28,683 nucleotides of DNA from a virus: positions 1 to 28,683 of the IMG/VR virus record IMGVR_UViG_3300020203_000806, one strand, 5' to 3'. A program made the translations under genes and the position numbers. Numbering within the stretch: position 1 is the first letter of the stretch; the number at the start of each line of letters is the position of its first letter. This document shows, one piece after another, positions 2,521 through 28,464 of this stretch. The notes under the pieces were generated by a model, which saw only the letters and a list, made by a program, of their open reading frames with translations, searched no databases and had not been told where the DNA came from.

Positions 2521-3541
2521 TATTTTTAAACCAAGAATCGCTTATGGACCTTTTGAATATCAATGGGCTTACGATGCTTTTGAATTGCAAAATCTTAGTC
2601 ATTGGTTACCTTTTGAGGTAAACATGAGCGGAGATGTAAATGATTTTAAAAGAATGGATGAAAAAGATAAGTCGCTAATTGGCTCGGTGTTAAAATCGTT
2701 CACTATCAATGAGGTTTTTGTAGGTAATGATTATTGGTCTCGCATAGCTAAAATATTTAAAAAACAAGAGCTAGCCCTTATGGCTAATGCCTTTTCAAAT
2801 GCTGAGGGAATTCATAGTGTAAGTTATGCGTACTTAGACGAAAGCCTTGGATTACTTGATTATAATGCTTTCTTAAAAGATCCTACTGCCAAAGCAAAAA
2901 TAGATCGCATGATGGATACAAAATTTAAAACAAGAGAAGATATTGCATTATCAATAGCTATTTTCAGCGCATTTGTAGAAGGCGTGAATCTATACTCAAG
3001 CTTCTTGATTCTTTTAAACTATTCTAGATTCAACACCATGAAAGGTCTTTCACAGATTATAAGTTGGAGTATTATGGATGAGGCTCTACATTCTAGTACA
3101 GGATGCAAACTTTTTCGCACCATAATTGAAGAAAATCCTCAATTGTGGACAGATGACTTTAAGAAAAAGATTTATGACGCAGCTAGAGTTACTATTGAGT
3201 TGGAAGATGACTTTTTAACTCAAGCTTTTTCTTTAGGAAACGTAGAGGGGCTAACTTTAGCAGATGTTAAAGTTTTTATCAGACATCGCTGCAATTTAAA
3301 GTTAGAGGAGCTAGGATTAAAAAAGAATTGGAAGAATTTAGATCAGGAGGCATTAAAAAGATTAGCTTGGTACGATGTGGCTTCTAATTCAAACCTTGGC
3401 CATCAGGATTTCTTTGCAGGCCGCGTTACCACATATAGTAAGGTAAGCACTGATCAAAATTGGGATAAAATCTGGGATGAAACAGATAAACAAAATAACT
3501 TTAAAAATACAACAAAAGATTTAGAAGGAGCTGCTGAATGA
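2513..3541 (+). CDS. nrdB: Class I ribonucleotide reductase, small subunit (R2)
   Basis: This is the 342-residue R2 subunit, which houses the diiron-tyrosyl radical that starts reduction of ribonucleotides by the large subunit. Conserved ligands are seen: E98 and H101 with the radical tyrosine Y105 (pattern ExxHSxSY), a glutamate in AFVEGVNLYSSF near 161, and E/H in MDEALHSS near 194. The first carboxylate is probably the Glu in FTINEVF near residue 67. I chose ATG 2513, not 2507, because AGGAG at 2501-2505 is 7 bases from 2513 but only 1 base from 2507, and the usual protein starts MLDIF. The gene overlaps the nuclease gene by 8 bases and nrdA by 4, so expression is coupled. The order nrdB then nrdA is the reverse of the common arrangement. 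Confidence 0.97.
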   Translation: MLDIFKPRIAYGPFEYQWAYDAFELQNLSHWLPFEVNMSGDVNDFKRMDEKDKSLIGSVLKSFTINEVFVGNDYWSRIAKIFKKQELALMANAFSNAEGIHSVSYAYLDESLGLLDYNAFLKDPTAKAKIDRMMDTKFKTREDIALSIAIFSAFVEGVNLYSSFLILLNYSRFNTMKGLSQIISWSIMDEALHSSTGCKLFRTIIEENPQLWTDDFKKKIYDAARVTIELEDDFLTQAFSLGNVEGLTLADVKVFIRHRCNLKLEELGLKKNWKNLDQEALKRLAWYDVASNSNLGHQDFFAGRVTTYSKVSTDQNWDKIWDETDKQNNFKNTTKDLEGAAE

Positions 3542-5274
3542 GTAATAAAACAGATTTGGAAATGCAAAAAGAATTAGGTGAAGCTCCTGAGTGGTTAGAT
3601 GAAGTTGGATATAAAACATTAGCCAGCGGGTATTTACAAGACTTATCTGAAACGAAGAAGGAGACTGTTAATGAAGCCATTACTCGTGTATGTCATTCAG
3701 TCTCGTCATATCTGAACAAGCCACAGTTAGAGAGTTTATTTAAAGAAGCAACAATGCGCAACTGGCTTTGTTATGCAAGCCCTATTTGGTCTAATGCTGG
3801 TACGGCTAGAGGCCTACCTATTAGTTGTAATAGTATTCATGTTGGAGATTCCGTATCTTCAATATTTAAAAAGAATACTGAGCTTGCAATGTTAACTAAA
3901 TTTGGTGCGGGCGTTGGTATCTATATGGGGGATGTTCGAAGCAGAGGTGTAAATATAACTGGTAATGGAAAATCTGAGGGAATTATACCTTGGCTTAAAG
4001 TTCTAGAAGTTACAACCAACAGTGTAAGCCAGGGAAGCACGCGCAGAGGAGCCACAGCCACCTATGTTCCAGCTACCCATGGAGACATAAAAGATTTCTT
4101 ACTAATTAGACGTGCAACGGGCGATCATAATATGCGAGCACGAAATATGAATATAGGAGTGTGTATTTCAGATCAGTTTTTACAAGAAGCTGATGATGGA
4201 AATAAACATAACCGTGAGTTATGGCATGATATTTTAAAAGAAAGATTTGAGCAAGGAGAACCCTATCTTTTATTTACAGATAACGCTAACCGTCAAAAGC
4301 CAGAATCATATGTAAAAAATAATTTAGACATTAAGACATCAAATATTTGTAATGAAATTTATCAATATACTGATCCTGACCATACATTTGTGTGTTGTCT
4401 ATCATCGTTAAATCTTGATCGGTACGACGAGTGGAAAGATTTTAAATTTTCAAATGGCATGACACTTCCTGAATTATCTACGTGGTTTCTTGACGGGATC
4501 ATGAGTGAGTATATTGATAAAGCTCAGCATATAGAGCATTTTGAGTGTTCTGTTCGTTCAGCAATCAAAGGGAGAGCTTTAGGTTTAGGCGTTTTGGGCT
4601 TTCACTCTTACTTACAGCGTCACATGGTTGATATGGAGGGTTTTGAAGCTTTTAAAATTAATAATGAAATATTTAAGTTTATAAATGAGCAATCATTAAA
4701 AGCATCACAAGACATGGCTGTTGAATATGGAGAGCCTGAGTGGTGTAAAGGTTTGGGAGTTAGAAATACATTAAGAACAGCAGTAGCACCAACGGCTACT
4801 AATTCAACTATTTCTGGCGGGGTAAGTCCTGGTATAGAACCTATAGCTCAAAATTTAATTAATCTTAAATCAGCTAAAGGAAATTTTGAAAAATACAATC
4901 GTGATCTTAAAAAATTATTAGTTGAAAAGGGATTAGATACGCAAGAGACATGGACGAAGATCATTAATGATAATGGATCTGTAAAAAATATAAAGCAATT
5001 AAGCAAAGAAGAAAAGGAAGTATTTAAAACTGCAAGAGAGATGAATCAGCATACATTAATTAAACTAGCTTCACAGCGTCAAAAATATATTGATCAGGGG
5101 CAATCTTTAAATTTATTTTTCACTAGTAATTGTGATGCTAGATATTTGACAGAAGTTCATCGGGCAGCGCATTCTGAAGGCTTAAAAGGTCTGTATTACT
5201 GTAGGAGCACATCTGTATTATCTTCATCCGCCAGTTACAGATCTCCTGACGAGTGTATAGCCTGCGAAGGTTAA
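3538..5274 (+). CDS. nrdA: Class I ribonucleotide reductase, large subunit (R1), no ATP-cone
   Basis: This 578-residue subunit reduces ribonucleotides to deoxyribonucleotides together with NrdB. Key residues are present: C97 in ISCNSI (redox cysteine), N269-x-C271-x-E273 in SNICNEI (active-site triad with the thiyl cysteine), C286/C287 as the partner cysteine, PTATNSTISGGVSPGIEPI, and the tyrosine pair Y553-Y554 in LYYCRSTS that carries the radical from R2. The C-terminal shuttle cysteines are in CIACEG. It is much shorter than the roughly 750-residue bacterial NrdA and lacks the N-terminal ATP-cone. By family knowledge it should therefore not be shut off by dATP through that domain. An AAGGAG site and an ATGA overlap link it to nrdB. 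A hairpin follows the stop codon. Confidence 0.97.
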   Translation: MSNKTDLEMQKELGEAPEWLDEVGYKTLASGYLQDLSETKKETVNEAITRVCHSVSSYLNKPQLESLFKEATMRNWLCYASPIWSNAGTARGLPISCNSIHVGDSVSSIFKKNTELAMLTKFGAGVGIYMGDVRSRGVNITGNGKSEGIIPWLKVLEVTTNSVSQGSTRRGATATYVPATHGDIKDFLLIRRATGDHNMRARNMNIGVCISDQFLQEADDGNKHNRELWHDILKERFEQGEPYLLFTDNANRQKPESYVKNNLDIKTSNICNEIYQYTDPDHTFVCCLSSLNLDRYDEWKDFKFSNGMTLPELSTWFLDGIMSEYIDKAQHIEHFECSVRSAIKGRALGLGVLGFHSYLQRHMVDMEGFEAFKINNEIFKFINEQSLKASQDMAVEYGEPEWCKGLGVRNTLRTAVAPTATNSTISGGVSPGIEPIAQNLINLKSAKGNFEKYNRDLKKLLVEKGLDTQETWTKIINDNGSVKNIKQLSKEEKEVFKTAREMNQHTLIKLASQRQKYIDQGQSLNLFFTSNCDARYLTEVHRAAHSEGLKGLYYCRSTSVLSSSASYRSPDECIACEG

Positions 5275-19353: not shown

Positions 19354-20508
19354 ATGTTTTATGTTTATAAAATTACCAATATAATAAATAATAAAATATA
19401 TATAGGCCAAACCATAACAACTATTAAAAAAAGATGGGATTCACACATACGAGCTTCGTGTTTAGATAAACCAACAATGCTAATATCATTAGCTATAAAA
19501 AAATTTGGATTAGAATATTTTTCTATTGAAGAAATAGATAGATCTAAAAATATTAATGATATAAACATTAAGGAAATATATTGGATTAATTTTTATAACT
19601 CCAGGCACAATGATATTGGCTATAATGTTAGTAGGGGTGGTGGCAATTCGATCAATAAGAAAAAATATCAGTTAGTAAGTAAAAATCAAGTATATAAAAT
19701 AAGATTTGAATTATCAAAAGGCCATCACAGTTTCAATGATATATCAAATATTTTAAATATTGATTATGATACTGTTCGCGCAATATATCACAATCAATAT
19801 TGCATAGATAAAAACTATATAAAACAAAATTATGATAAAATATTAAAAAAAGGTTTGAAACAGCGCAGTGATATGTCAAGAGGATTAAGATCATATAAAT
19901 CGAAGTTTTCTTATCAGGATATAGTAAACATAAGATCTTATTTTTATTATGAAAAATTATCTTGTGATAAATTATCTAAAATATATAATGTTTCTAATAA
20001 TACTATATTAGATCTTATCAGGCTTAAATCATATGCAGATATACCAGCACCTTATTCATTAAAAAAAATCAAAGAAATAATTTTAAATAATAAATCAATT
20101 AATGGTATGAATCAGGGTCCCAAAAATAAAGGCGAAAAACATGGTATGAATAAATATTCTGATGATTTAATTCAAAAAATTAGAACAATGTACTCAACTG
20201 GCAACTTTACGCAGAAATATATAGCTGATTGTTTTAATGTTCTGCCTAAATATGTTAGCAGAATAGTCACCGGAGAGCGCCGTGGAAAAACAAATATTGA
20301 TGTAAAGCAGATAAAAGATAAGACTGTATCTTATAGTGGAAATAAAAACCCAGCAGCAAAATTAACTACGGAAATTGTAAAACAAATTAGGGCAGAAATG
20401 AAATATTCTACAAAGGATAATATTGTTAAAAAATATACAGAGATATACAAAGTTTCAAAAACATCTATATACTATATATTAAACAATAAAACATGGAACA
20501 ATGTATGA
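19354..20508 (+). CDS. GIY-YIG homing endonuclease
   Basis: This 384-residue protein is a free-standing GIY-YIG endonuclease. FYVYKITNIINNKIYIGQT at 2-20 is the GIY-YIG core, R27 and E74 (KEIYWI) are the expected catalytic residues, and GYNVSRGGG at 89-97 closes the domain. Residues about 100-384 contain repeated helix-turn-helix-like or IENR/NUMOD-type units, such as SYQDIVNIRSYF, SDDLIQKIRTMY and TTEIVKQIRAEM, each followed by a DNA-reading helix. It lies between gmd and fcl, and its TGA overlaps the fcl ATG (ATGA). Like other homing endonucleases it probably spreads to phages lacking it, with a neighbouring sugar gene as target. Confidence 0.93.
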   Translation: MFYVYKITNIINNKIYIGQTITTIKKRWDSHIRASCLDKPTMLISLAIKKFGLEYFSIEEIDRSKNINDINIKEIYWINFYNSRHNDIGYNVSRGGGNSINKKKYQLVSKNQVYKIRFELSKGHHSFNDISNILNIDYDTVRAIYHNQYCIDKNYIKQNYDKILKKGLKQRSDMSRGLRSYKSKFSYQDIVNIRSYFYYEKLSCDKLSKIYNVSNNTILDLIRLKSYADIPAPYSLKKIKEIILNNKSINGMNQGPKNKGEKHGMNKYSDDLIQKIRTMYSTGNFTQKYIADCFNVLPKYVSRIVTGERRGKTNIDVKQIKDKTVSYSGNKNPAAKLTTEIVKQIRAEMKYSTKDNIVKKYTEIYKVSKTSIYYILNNKTWNNV

Positions 20509-21518
20509 CAGAAAATATTTTACTTACAGGCTGCACATCATTCCTTGGTGCAGCAATTATAGATTGTCTTGTAAAAGATGGGTATAATATATTTGGGTCC
20601 AATATTGTAAATTATTCAATTGAAAATAAACATATAATGTTTATCATTCCAAACTCTAATGATTGCGATTGTTTAAATTTTGATAAATTAAATAATTATA
20701 TAAATGAATTTAAAATAACAAAAATATTTCATGCAGCAGCTCGTTGTGGTGGAATTGGTTTAAATCAAAAAACTCCAGCAGACTTGACAGTTGAAAATAT
20801 TCAAATGGGTATTAATGTATATATGGCTGCAAAATTAAATAATATTGAATACGTATACACTCTAGGTAGCGTTTGTGCTTACCCTCAATTTTGCGATATA
20901 CCATTTAAAGAGTCAGATTTGTGGAATGGAATGCCGGAAATAACTAATGCTGGGTATGGTCACGCTAAGCGAACTTTACTTATGCTTGGCAATACTTACA
21001 GGTCACAATACGGCATTAAAGGTGGACAGTTAATACCAATTAATATGTATGGTTTACAGGACCATTACGATTTAGAAAATTCGCATGTGATACCAGCTCT
21101 TATAAGAAAAATATATGAAGCGAAATTAAATAAAGACAAAGATGTTACGTGTTGGGGTAGCGGCAAAGCATACAGAAGTTTTTTAAATAGTCATGATTGC
21201 GCTCAAGCTATAGTTAAAACATGTTTGTTAAATTTAGATTTTGAGCAACCAATTAATTTAGGACCAACTGATGATATATCTATTAAAGATTTATCTTTGT
21301 TAATATCTAAATTAATAAATTATAATGGAAATATTGTTTTTGATCCATCAAAACCTGATGGACAATTAAGAAGATTGTTAGATACGTCTAGAGCTAAAGA
21401 TATTTTGGATTGGCAAGCACAAATAAAATTCGAGAAAGGCTTAAACGATACCATTAAATGGTACATAGCTAATAGGGAATTATTAATAAATAATGAGTCA
21501 AAAAAAATACGAAGATAA
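20505..21518 (+). CDS. fcl: GDP-L-fucose synthase (4-keto-6-deoxymannose epimerase/reductase)
   Basis: This 337-residue bifunctional enzyme converts GDP-4-keto-6-deoxymannose, the Gmd product, to GDP-L-fucose with NADPH. LLTGCTSFLG at 6-15 is the cofactor loop, TLGSVCAYP at 119-127 carries the catalytic Ser and Cys, GYGHAK at 150-155 carries Tyr151 and Lys155, and SHVIPALIRKIYEA contains the His needed for epimerisation. WGSGKAYRSFLNSHDCA and PDGQLRRLLDTSRAK complete the family pattern. I chose ATG 20505, the ATGA overlap with the endonuclease stop, rather than 20493, which lies inside the upstream frame. The last 26 bases overlap the next gene. Confidence 0.95.
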   Translation: MTENILLTGCTSFLGAAIIDCLVKDGYNIFGSNIVNYSIENKHIMFIIPNSNDCDCLNFDKLNNYINEFKITKIFHAAARCGGIGLNQKTPADLTVENIQMGINVYMAAKLNNIEYVYTLGSVCAYPQFCDIPFKESDLWNGMPEITNAGYGHAKRTLLMLGNTYRSQYGIKGGQLIPINMYGLQDHYDLENSHVIPALIRKIYEAKLNKDKDVTCWGSGKAYRSFLNSHDCAQAIVKTCLLNLDFEQPINLGPTDDISIKDLSLLISKLINYNGNIVFDPSKPDGQLRRLLDTSRAKDILDWQAQIKFEKGLNDTIKWYIANRELLINNESKKIRR

Positions 21519-22379: not shown

Positions 22380-23274
22380 GATAAAAATATTAATTACAGG
22401 ATGTCTTGGATTTATCGGTAGCAACGCTGCTAGGTTTTTATTAAAGGAAAGCAAAGACTATGAAATAGTGGGTATTGATTATGCTGTTGAACCTAAACTT
22501 CTTCATGCTATTCATTTAAATAAAAATAATACTTTTTACTTAGGCAATATAACTGATTCTCACTTCATTAATAACGTTTTAAGTTTAGAAAAACCAGATG
22601 TTATCATTCATATGGCTGATACCAAACTGCCTGGATGCGTTGATACAAATGTTGTCGGAACACATGTTTTAATTGAAAATGCCATAAAACATAAAATACA
22701 AAAATTTGTTTATATATCTTCTGATAAAGTATGTGGAAAGATATCAGCTAATGAAAATGATCATGCAACGCCTAATACTACTTATGCTGTTAGTAAATAT
22801 TCATCAGAACTTTTATTACAAGTGTCAGGATTAAATTATGTGATTATAAGACCTTGCAATATATTTGGACCAAGACAGTCAGAAGAATATTTGATACCGT
22901 ATGTTATCAAAAGTATGATAGAAGAACGTGTGGTTAAACTTTATAATCAAGGTTTAAACTTACGTGATTATTTATATGTTACAGATTTTGCGGCTGCACT
23001 AAAGATTATACTTGAAAAAGGTACGGGCCCAGTATACCATGTGAGTTCAGATTGGCAGCTTTCTAGCTTGGACCTATATAAGAATATATCAGATATCTTT
23101 AATATGAAAGATTACCCAATAGAATTTAATAATACATTTAAAACAGATAACGAAAGAAATATAAAATGTTCGGATCTAAAAGCACTAGGCTGGAAGCCAG
23201 AAGCAAAATTTAAAGAATCATTAAACACAACTATTAATTGGTATGTTAATAACTATCAATGGTTCTTAAAATGA
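22372..23274 (+). CDS. NAD-dependent epimerase/dehydratase (sugar nucleotide)
   Basis: This is a 300-residue extended short-chain dehydrogenase for a nucleotide sugar. ILITGCLGFIGSN at 6-18 is the NAD-binding loop. YISSDKVCG at 114-122 places Ser-Asp-Lys where RmlB has Thr-Asp-Glu, a triad form seen in the CapD/PseB type. TYAVSKYSSELL at 137-148 carries the Tyr-x3-Lys pair. IRPCNIFGPRQ and YLYVTDFAAAL are the usual sugar-binding parts. It could make a 4-keto sugar or epimerise one, and the exact reaction is not decided by sequence. An upstream TTG at 22369 is an alternative start, but ATG 22372 overlaps the previous stop and is preferred. Confidence 0.85.
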   Translation: MSKIKILITGCLGFIGSNAARFLLKESKDYEIVGIDYAVEPKLLHAIHLNKNNTFYLGNITDSHFINNVLSLEKPDVIIHMADTKLPGCVDTNVVGTHVLIENAIKHKIQKFVYISSDKVCGKISANENDHATPNTTYAVSKYSSELLLQVSGLNYVIIRPCNIFGPRQSEEYLIPYVIKSMIEERVVKLYNQGLNLRDYLYVTDFAAALKIILEKGTGPVYHVSSDWQLSSLDLYKNISDIFNMKDYPIEFNNTFKTDNERNIKCSDLKALGWKPEAKFKESLNTTINWYVNNYQWFLK

Positions 23275-24190
23275 AGAAGAGATGGACAGAACAAGAAGAT
23301 AATTTATTAAAAAAAATATATTGTAATATAAACAGAAACGAATTAAAAAATATGTTTCATAACAGAACATATGATGCTATAAAATTAAGAGCAAGATATT
23401 TTGGTTTAAAATATAAAAATATTGATTCTAGAATTGGTGATGTTAAAGTATTATTAAATGATAATAATGAAGTTTATTATTGGTTAGGGTTTTTATTAGC
23501 GGATGGTCATTTTTCTAATAAAAAAAGAATCGTTATAAAAATAGCACAAAAAGATACCAATCATTTAGAAAAGTTTGCAAAATTATTAAATTCAAAAGTA
23601 AAGATAAGCAATAGTTCACATAGATATTGTTCGGTTCAAATACAAGATAAAATTAATGTTAAAATACTGTGTGATAAATTTGGTATTAATTCTAATAAAA
23701 CTTATAATCCTCCAACCAAAATATTTAGCATAAATAATAACCAATTAATGTTTTCATTAATCGTTGGCTTTATTGATGGTGATGGCTGTATTTTTAAAAA
23801 AAAAACAGGCATGATGCTGGATTAAGGATTAAAATACACTCTTCATGGTTTCATATTCTACAAAATTTTGAATGTTTTATTTATGATTATTTAAATATCA
23901 ATCATAATAAATCTGTTATAATTAATAACCAAGGATATGCGCAACTTTCAATACTTAATAATGAAATATTAAGAAAAATTAAAAAAGAAATAATTAAACT
24001 TAATTTGCCTATTTTAAATAGAAAATGGGATAAAATAAATGAGAATATTTACGGCAAGTATCAAAAAACAACAATACAAAAACAAACAGTCATGATATTA
24101 ATGAATAAAAAATATAATATAAAACAGATTACTAAAATAACAAATATTAGTGCTGGCGTTATATATAATTATATAAGGAATGCAAAATGA
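23271..24190 (+). pseudogene. LAGLIDADG homing endonuclease, frameshifted in an A10 run
   Basis: The N-terminal frame (23271-23825) encodes a Myb/SANT-like DNA-binding segment (KRWTEQEDNLLKKIY, 3-17, to ARYFGLK) and both LAGLIDADG motifs: YYWLGFLLADGHF (69-81) and LIVGFIDGDGCIF (163-175). After ten A residues at 23796-23805 this frame stops at 23823. The -1 frame continues as RHDAGLRIKIHSSW and runs open to TGA 24188-24190, giving the rest of the second half and a C-terminal HTH (KYNIKQITKITNISAGVIY). One extra A, or two fewer, would restore the gene. Either it is inactivated, or slippage on the A run makes some full product, or the base count is an error. It starts in the ATGA overlap of the epimerase gene. 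Confidence 0.8.
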
Positions 24191-26730: not shown

Positions 26731-27011
26731 TGACTATAAAAAGAATCAAATCAAATGGTCAAAATATTGAAGTTAAAACTAAAAAAATAGATTACAAACT
26801 TCATAACTTTTTATCTTTCTTAGATGAAGATGTTTTAAAAATTTTTATTATAAAAAGCGAAGATAAATACGCTATATCATTTATTGATAATCTTCTTTCA
26901 GCTGCAAATAATTTAAATAATTCCTCTGAACAAAATAAAGAAATTGATGCCGCTAAAAAAATACTTAATAATAGAAAAAATCAAATTATAATTAAACAAA
27001 TTATAGAATAA
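26730..27011 (+). CDS. Small unknown protein with IKQIIE tail
   Basis: This 93-residue protein is of unknown function. The N-terminus is basic (TIKRIKSNGQNIEVKTKKIDY). The rest is helical with alternating hydrophobic residues (FLSFLDEDVLKIFII, FIDNLLSAANNL) and a charged helix (NKEIDAAKKILNNRKNQ) running into IIIKQIIE at the stop. The tail is nearly identical to that of the 26188 protein (IKQIIE). It begins by TAATG coupling and ends 7 bases before the tubulin-like gene, in the same transcript. Confidence 0.75.
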   Translation: MTIKRIKSNGQNIEVKTKKIDYKLHNFLSFLDEDVLKIFIIKSEDKYAISFIDNLLSAANNLNNSSEQNKEIDAAKKILNNRKNQIIIKQIIE

Positions 27012-27018
27012 GGGTATA

Positions 27019-28395
27019 ATGTCAGTTAAAACAACAAACGTAACATTGGAGAATAATATCGTGGATGACCTAGAAGAAAAACAAGAAGTTGAAGAAATTA
27101 CACAACCTGCTGATGATGTTAATCTCGCTACGTTGGAAGCACTTAAACAGAAAATGAAAGCTAAGAAAGAGGAAAACTCTATGTCCGTTAAAATCGTGGA
27201 AGATAAAAAAAGAAGCATTAACTTTGGCGTAATTGGATCCGGTCAGTGCGGATCTCGACTGTCTCAAAGTCTTTATGAAATGGGATATCCAGCTGTAGCA
27301 ATGAATACTGCCGAGGTTGATTTAAGAGATATTAAACTGCCGCAAGACTCAAAACTTTTACTGGATTATACAATTGGTGGTGCCGCAAAAAGTTTATCAA
27401 TTGGACACGAAGCTGCAGAAGCTAATCGCGAAGCCATTGTTGAACTGGTTGATACAAAGCTAGGTGATTGTCAGGCTTTTGTTTTTTGCGCAAGCCTTGG
27501 TGGCGGAAGCGGAGCTGGTAGCGCAAATGTTGTTCTTGATATTTTGGCACAAACTGGAAAACCAACAATTGCCCTGGTTGTATTACCCATGAGTTCAGAT
27601 GACCACGTTACAAAGAATAATGCAGTTGAAACACTTGTCATGCTAAGTAAACTCCTAAAAGAAAAGAAACTTTCAAATTGTTTTATTGTTGATAATGCTC
27701 GCGTAGAAAATTTATTAGGTGATGTGAATCCTCTTGATTTGTTTGAAGCTTCTAATACCGTGATAACAGAACCGCTCAATTATCTTAATACCTTAGGCTC
27801 TCTTTCGAGCCGAGCAAAAAGTATTGACCCATTAGAAACAGCCAAGTTGTTATTTGATTCTGAAGGATTATCAATTTTTGGAAGCATTACCATTCCAGCT
27901 TCAGATCTGGACGGTGACACAGCAATTGCAGAGGCTATTCTTGCAAACTTAAATGATGGCCTTCTTGCTTCGAACTTTGATTTGGCTCAAGCTAAATATT
28001 GCGCATTTGCAATTATTGGAAATGCTAAGGCCTGGTCTAAAGTTAAAAGCTCTGCATTAACTTACGCTAACGCTGTTCTTGAGGAAACTGCATCAAAGGC
28101 AGACGCAGTATTTCGTGGATTATATGAAAGCGAAGAAGTTGGTGATAACCTTAAAATATTTAGTTATTTTAGCGGTTTAGGAATTCCGACACAAAGAGTT
28201 AATTCATTAAAAGAAGAAGTTAAAAAAGGTATGGAAAGAACTCAGTCACGAGAAAAAGATAGAGCTGCAAATCTTGATGTTGCTGGAATTAAAGATGAAA
28301 ACCAAAGTGCTGCAGACAAAGTTAAAGAGATGATACGTCAAAAGAATTCTGGTTTTGGAAAGAATTTTGGCGGAGGAAAAGATTTTCGAAAATAA
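27019..28395 (+). CDS. Tubulin/FtsZ-superfamily GTPase
   Basis: This 458-residue protein is a tubulin/FtsZ-family GTPase, which would polymerise into filaments and hydrolyse GTP. The fold shows NFGVIGSGQCGSRLSQSL at 68-85 (first phosphate loop), AVAMNTAEVDL at 92-102, the tubulin signature LGGGSGAGSA at 160-169, and LVVLPMSSDD near 186-195. Residues 1-54 are an acidic, helix-rich extension with no match to the fold. A second start (MSVK at residue 55) has a better ribosome binding site and gives 404 residues. The C-terminus ends in a flexible Gly/Lys/Arg tail (FGKNFGGGKDFRK). Phage relatives such as PhuZ position DNA or a nucleus-like body, whereas TubZ segregates plasmids. Which role applies here is unknown. 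Confidence 0.9.
   Translation: MSVKTTNVTLENNIVDDLEEKQEVEEITQPADDVNLATLEALKQKMKAKKEENSMSVKIVEDKKRSINFGVIGSGQCGSRLSQSLYEMGYPAVAMNTAEVDLRDIKLPQDSKLLLDYTIGGAAKSLSIGHEAAEANREAIVELVDTKLGDCQAFVFCASLGGGSGAGSANVVLDILAQTGKPTIALVVLPMSSDDHVTKNNAVETLVMLSKLLKEKKLSNCFIVDNARVENLLGDVNPLDLFEASNTVITEPLNYLNTLGSLSSRAKSIDPLETAKLLFDSEGLSIFGSITIPASDLDGDTAIAEAILANLNDGLLASNFDLAQAKYCAFAIIGNAKAWSKVKSSALTYANAVLEETASKADAVFRGLYESEEVGDNLKIFSYFSGLGIPTQRVNSLKEEVKKGMERTQSREKDRAANLDVAGIKDENQSAADKVKEMIRQKNSGFGKNFGGGKDFRK
27169..27183 (+). promoter_or_regulatory. Internal ribosome binding site and second start in tubulin-like gene
   Basis: GAGGA at 27169-27173 lies 7 bases before an in-frame ATG at 27181. The annotated start at 27019 has AAGGG at 27010-27014 with only 4 bases of spacing. 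Both predicted proteins begin MSVK. The internal start would remove the acidic 54-residue extension and begin 13 residues before the first GTPase strand. Confidence 0.55.
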
Positions 28396-28417: not shown

Positions 28418-28464
28418 ATAAAACATCTTAACATTATGATATATATTATGTTAAGATGTTTTAT
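28418..28464 (+). terminator. Rho-independent-like terminator after tubulin-like gene
   Basis: A perfect 17-bp stem pairs 28418-28434 with 28448-28464 around a 13-base AT loop, 23 bases after the stop codon. The right arm ends in TTTTAT, then TTATAT. It is the strongest hairpin in the window, though AT-rich, and could end transcription from either side (A residues at the left arm, T residues at the right). Confidence 0.7.

Follow-up and report, generated by a model that had tools for sequence, protein, structure and literature searches.

The tubulin gene of the window and its 2 in-frame start codons

The stretch of DNA analyzed here (the window) is a complete virus record in IMG/VR, 28,683 bases long. 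On its plus strand, positions 27019–28395 are occupied by an open reading frame (ORF) of 458 codons for a phage tubulin with 84 close relatives in other viral contigs. The product matches the tubulin/FtsZ GTPase domain of Pfam (PF00091) with 61.2 bits against a cut-off of 33 (E = 2e-16). Judged by this score, by the GGGxGxG signature and by the acid of the T7 loop, the ORF encodes a GTPase of the tubulin/FtsZ superfamily. The signature (T4 loop) reads GGGSGAGS at residues 161–168 (27499–27522) and is invariant in the ten-member alignment A2, and the T7-loop acids D270 and E273 (27826–27837), which belong to the catalytic loop of FtsZ and tubulin, are conserved. The tubulin ORFs of 2 relatives (L111 and L114; 926 and 940 aa) are enlarged by intein-like inserts, 1 of them with a clear LAGLIDADG motif. 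Both lie exactly in the nucleotide-binding loop, between GxGQAG and SR, a placement which suggests that the site is functionally critical.

Reading of the ORF confirmed 2 ATG codons in the same frame, at 27019 and 27181, both of which open with MSVK (MSVKTTN and MSVKIVE, respectively) and would give products of 458 and 404 aa, the shorter encoded by 27181–28395. The internal ATG has, as the sequence-only reading had pointed out, a well-spaced GAGGA ahead of it (27169–27173, 7 nt before the start codon), and the predicted Shine–Dalgarno (SD) duplex is stronger at this site (−5.8 kcal/mol) than at the first start (−3.7 kcal/mol). The weak SD-like AAGGG of the latter (27010–27014) shares bases with the stop codon (27009–27011) of the preceding ORF, so that translational coupling is possible. 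Directly 3′ of the gene lies a 20-nt AT-rich inverted repeat (28418–28464), a possible terminator.

Predicted structure of the protein

An AlphaFold2 model built from a 50-sequence alignment (mean pLDDT 83.7) shows the tubulin fold from approximately residue 66, followed at the C-terminal end by a long helix at residues 391–422 (28189–28284), as in TubZ, and a short helix at residues 431–443. The N-terminal extension is predicted to be disordered, with pLDDT mostly below 50 at residues 1–34 and 50–60, save for a helix at residues 36–51 (27124–27171; family consensus KLAALKAKxxAK), in agreement with the earlier proposal that it lies outside the GTPase fold. The description of the first 54 residues as acidic holds for a disordered arm of approximately residues 1–38 (27019–27132; net charge −8, family median −5) and fails for the predicted helix, which carries a net charge of +2. 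The C-terminal tail, residues 430–458 (28306–28392), is basic and conserved (family consensus SAAQKIKxKIAxKSSxFGKLxGGxxDRRK). Its basic terminal motif is present in 81 of 81 complete family members, and the end of the window protein, GKNFGGGKDFRK, singled out before as a Gly-Lys-Arg tail, is part of the family-wide FGK..GG..DRRK.

A distinct family of tubulins in huge-phage contigs

In IMG/VR, 179 stretches encode relatives of the protein, 80 of which were kept. The 84 close relatives analyzed besides the window are encoded on uncultivated viral contigs, reaching 480,838 bases, and 53 representatives with less than 85% identity were used for start-site statistics. Each of the 26 large contigs encodes a single tubulin. 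Among 50,697 phage records, the sole relative was gp138 of Bacillus phage G (25% identity), which has a single start and no N-terminal extension. The viral library yielded 1 uncultured Caudovirales protein, the “FtsZ” A0A6J5RW92, known as a database entry only; it is 40% identical over its full length and almost certainly belongs to this family, whereas PhuZ-like proteins scored far lower. A cellular origin was considered and rejected: 84,980 genomes of prokaryotes were scanned and yielded only 2 distant archaeal matches.

Comparison with structures points toward TubZ. The top phmmer match in the PDB was TubZ/RepX (4ei7; 1.7e-10), with archaeal FtsZ next, and Foldseek ranked TubZ first (E = 1.7e-24; TM-score up to 0.81 by target), followed by CetZ and FtsZ. 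In a tree of 57 rows, in which the TubZ references came from PDB entries and plasmids, the family forms a separate, well-supported clade (99/97), apart from PhuZ (100/100, on a long branch), FtsZ/CetZ, and phage G, whereas the rows of plasmid TubZ are scattered on long branches. The tubulin thus falls outside the cellular FtsZ clade, a check that had been proposed from the sequence, and kinship with PhuZ was not upheld, the 2 clades being separate and the fold nearer to plasmid TubZ. A clade of marine phage tubulins (100/98) is also separate and is probably the nearest neighbor of the family, albeit with weak support (81/61). Its members (L001 and L015–L034) possess a conserved acidic N-terminus of their own, DLNIPTLDIEDxD; their first SD is strong, and among them no internal start was found whose SD is comparably conserved. 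The terminase profile gave too weak a signal for a placement of the phages of the family.

One gene, 2 probable products

A start codon (ATG or GTG) homologous to 27181 is present in 51 of the 53 representatives, located 9–11 codons ahead of the (R)S(I/L)xxG motif. The mean SD energy at this internal site is −6.25 kcal/mol, compared with −5.8 kcal/mol at the first ATG and −1.5 kcal/mol at 449 other in-frame ATGs, as scored on the assumption that the host has the canonical anti-SD sequence. When synonymous codons were redrawn according to the usage of each locus, the mean was −3.0 ± 0.31 kcal/mol and none of 2,000 shuffles was as low as the observed value (z = −10.6); the representatives share descent and hence are not fully independent, but synonymous sites are near saturation (median dS 1.4–2.1). 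An energy of −5 kcal/mol or lower was found for 77% of the internal sites versus 4% of the in-frame ATGs in the body of the gene. Codon choice follows the same pattern: the 6 valines that occupy the internal site are all encoded by GTG, although GTG makes up 9% to 16% of valine codons (p about 1.7e-6), and at positions −4 to −2 glutamate is encoded by GAG in 44 of 60 cases (68 of 318 elsewhere in the extension) and glutamine by CAG in 21 of 35 (26 of 134 elsewhere in the extension). In 50 of 51 sequences, A, P, or S follows the internal start codon, and the predicted mRNA structure is weaker around this start than in the body (−6.0 versus −12.1), a difference to which composition contributes. 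Taken by its conservation, the internal start is a real feature, far beyond chance. The MSVK repeat as such is no trace of a duplication, since it is the small residue after the internal start, and not MSVK at both starts, that is family-wide.

The extension has a dN/dS of 0.20, compared with 0.05 for the body, which marks it as a protein-coding segment under purifying selection. Together, the conserved internal start with its SD and the selection on the extension indicate that both forms are very probably made, so that 1 gene very probably yields a long and a short tubulin; the suggestion of 2 isoforms, the longer with a genuine N-terminal extension, is thereby strengthened. The arrangement is not indispensable in every phage, given that L007 and L108, which form a clade of their own, have lost the internal start together with its SD, and that L004 and L014 retain the start codon with almost no scored SD. 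A different explanation of the AGGAG preceding codon 55 is that it causes a translational pause at the junction of extension and GTPase domain, to let the protein fold co-translationally, while only the long form is made, and the conservation of the SD-like sequence and its location exactly at the domain boundary would fit this explanation. A pause, however, needs no start codon, yet one is maintained in nearly all representatives and as GTG in every valine case, and both the spacing and the small second residue are typical of initiation sites, which makes a pause with a single product very improbable.

In-frame dual starts have precedents in T7 gene 4 (4A/4B) and CheA, where, as proposed here, 1 gene provides 2 N-terminal forms of an oligomeric protein; unlike the present case, neither is cytoskeletal. 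Within the open-access library searched, no paper on a dual-start tubulin was found.

Relationship to known phage and plasmid tubulin systems

PhuZ of the phiKZ-like phages is likewise a tubulin-superfamily GTPase of large phages. The PhuZ proteins compared, however, are 314–327 aa long, shorter than both forms of the window protein, as had been noted before, and have no such extension. It had been considered plausible that the tubulin serves a nucleus-like compartment, and the searches for the corresponding genes turned out negative: no chimallin match above the cut-off was obtained in 24 tubulin-bearing contigs of 179–481 kb, some of which may be incomplete and in which a shell gene, if diverged, could have been missed, and phrog_3015, the RNA polymerase family of the phiKZ type, was not found in 21 large tubulin-bearing contigs. 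Phages phiKZ and 201phi2-1, which carry chimallin and multisubunit RNA polymerases, served as positive controls and matched in both searches. Given the chimallin result, a role in a phage nucleus is unlikely. The more specific idea of a PhuZ-like spindle protein that centers a chimallin nucleus, as in phiKZ, draws on the presence of the tubulin in a large phage, on a weak match to the PHROG profile of PhuZ, and on the report of PhuZ-like tubulins in huge phages by Al-Shayeb et al. (PMC7162821); set against the separate PhuZ clade and the missing chimallin and polymerase genes, we regard it as highly unlikely. A 2025 study regards tubulin in large phages as for the most part a marker of the nucleus-forming Chimalliviridae and notes only a handful of exceptions (PMC11835377).

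The TubZ proteins of Bacillus plasmids (2xka and 4ei7) are the best PDB match in both structure and sequence and have the long C-terminal helix in common with the window protein, at approximately 20% identity. The present tubulin differs from them in its dual start, its conserved N-terminal arm, its occurrence in huge-phage contigs, and the lack of a detectable TubR or tubC beside it. The closest fold would nevertheless suit a partition system of the TubZ type, by which a phage genome present as an episome (pseudolysogeny) is retained as its hosts divide, and the TubZ of phage c-st does segregate its plasmid prophage (review PMC7950403). The gene neighborhood speaks otherwise. No helix-turn-helix (HTH) family was detected among the tested neighbors of the tubulin, no iteron array was present in the 3 loci examined, and a plasmid-style partition role is therefore without support, whereas the plasmid homologs compared carry a small gene just upstream. 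The neighbors are instead glycan, helicase, and lysis genes: in the relatives, genes for an epimerase and a glycosyltransferase lie upstream, and downstream are those for a DnaC-like loader, a DnaB-like helicase, and a sigma factor, joined in some relatives by an endolysin gene. Partition of this kind consequently appears unlikely, if less so than the PhuZ-like spindle. Membership in a common superfamily makes it conceivable that polymerization surfaces are shared with the FtsZ of the host, in which case the protein could act as a decoy or antagonist, co-assembling with FtsZ or blocking it and thus halting division; with only approximately 20% identity to FtsZ structures and with conserved N- and C-terminal arms of its own, the tubulin is a poor candidate for this, and we give the idea little credence. 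FtsZ inhibitors of known phages, such as Kil and gp0.4, are small, unrelated proteins.

In most relatives, 2 conserved genes of unknown family are found 3–9 kb downstream of the tubulin (L045:14845–15459 and L045:15459–16031), and these are possible tubulin partners.

A model of a mixed tubulin filament

The comparative sequence data show selection on both starts and on the extension, together with intact GTPase motifs, and the fold is predicted to be that of tubulin. On this footing, we consider it reasonably probable that the protein, provided as 2 in-frame products, forms TubZ-like filaments driven by GTP in huge phages for which no nucleus is known. A subunit translated from 27019 would carry a disordered acidic arm and a short basic helix, and one translated from 27181 would be a bare tubulin. 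The 2 forms may co-polymerize at a ratio set by the 2 ribosome-binding sites, with the arm marking a fraction of the subunits and tethering, spacing, or regulating the filaments, while the conserved basic C-terminal tail would dock a partner. The assembly is most likely a TubZ-like filament in which some subunits bear the acidic N-terminal arm and others lack it, and we infer that such filaments could transport phage DNA or capsids, or set their position, in the course of the lytic cycle. A bolder version, which we put forward tentatively and which may well prove wrong, is that huge phages of a widespread lineage that lacks the chimallin nucleus possess a mixed, two-isoform tubulin cytoskeleton with a ratio set by translation, in which armed subunits grip cargo or serve as anchors and bare subunits polymerize.

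If this bolder version is correct, PhuZ and TubZ would be joined by a third tubulin system of phages. The occurrence of the tubulin clade in 2 dozen or more chimallin-negative huge-phage contigs suggests that a cytoskeleton can serve phages devoid of that nucleus, and the two-start gene would offer a simple, testable handle on the control of filament composition.

Other features of the window

Ten small ORFs of the window share a C-terminal tag, (x)IK[NDKQ][IV][IV][EQ], encoded by varied codons and attached to mostly dissimilar bodies; the tagged C-termini are at positions 276, 5614, 6723, 7952, 8218, 22035, 25159, 26191, 26550, and 27011. Such an IKxIIE-like ending is found in 10 of the 42 window ORFs of at least 60 aa versus 1 of 3,508 ORFs in other loci. 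Being specific to the window contig, the tag cannot mark clients of the tubulin family in general, and the notion that these small proteins are tubulin clients was abandoned.

The window further encodes an NrdA-like protein (3538–5274) that matches only positions 201–795 of the 975 in the ribonucleotide reductase family, which points to a possibly split large subunit; in L012, a separate C-terminal piece is located at 20438–21040. Finally, a LAGLIDADG-like homing endonuclease frame at 23259–24190 of the window is apparently broken into 2 ORFs.
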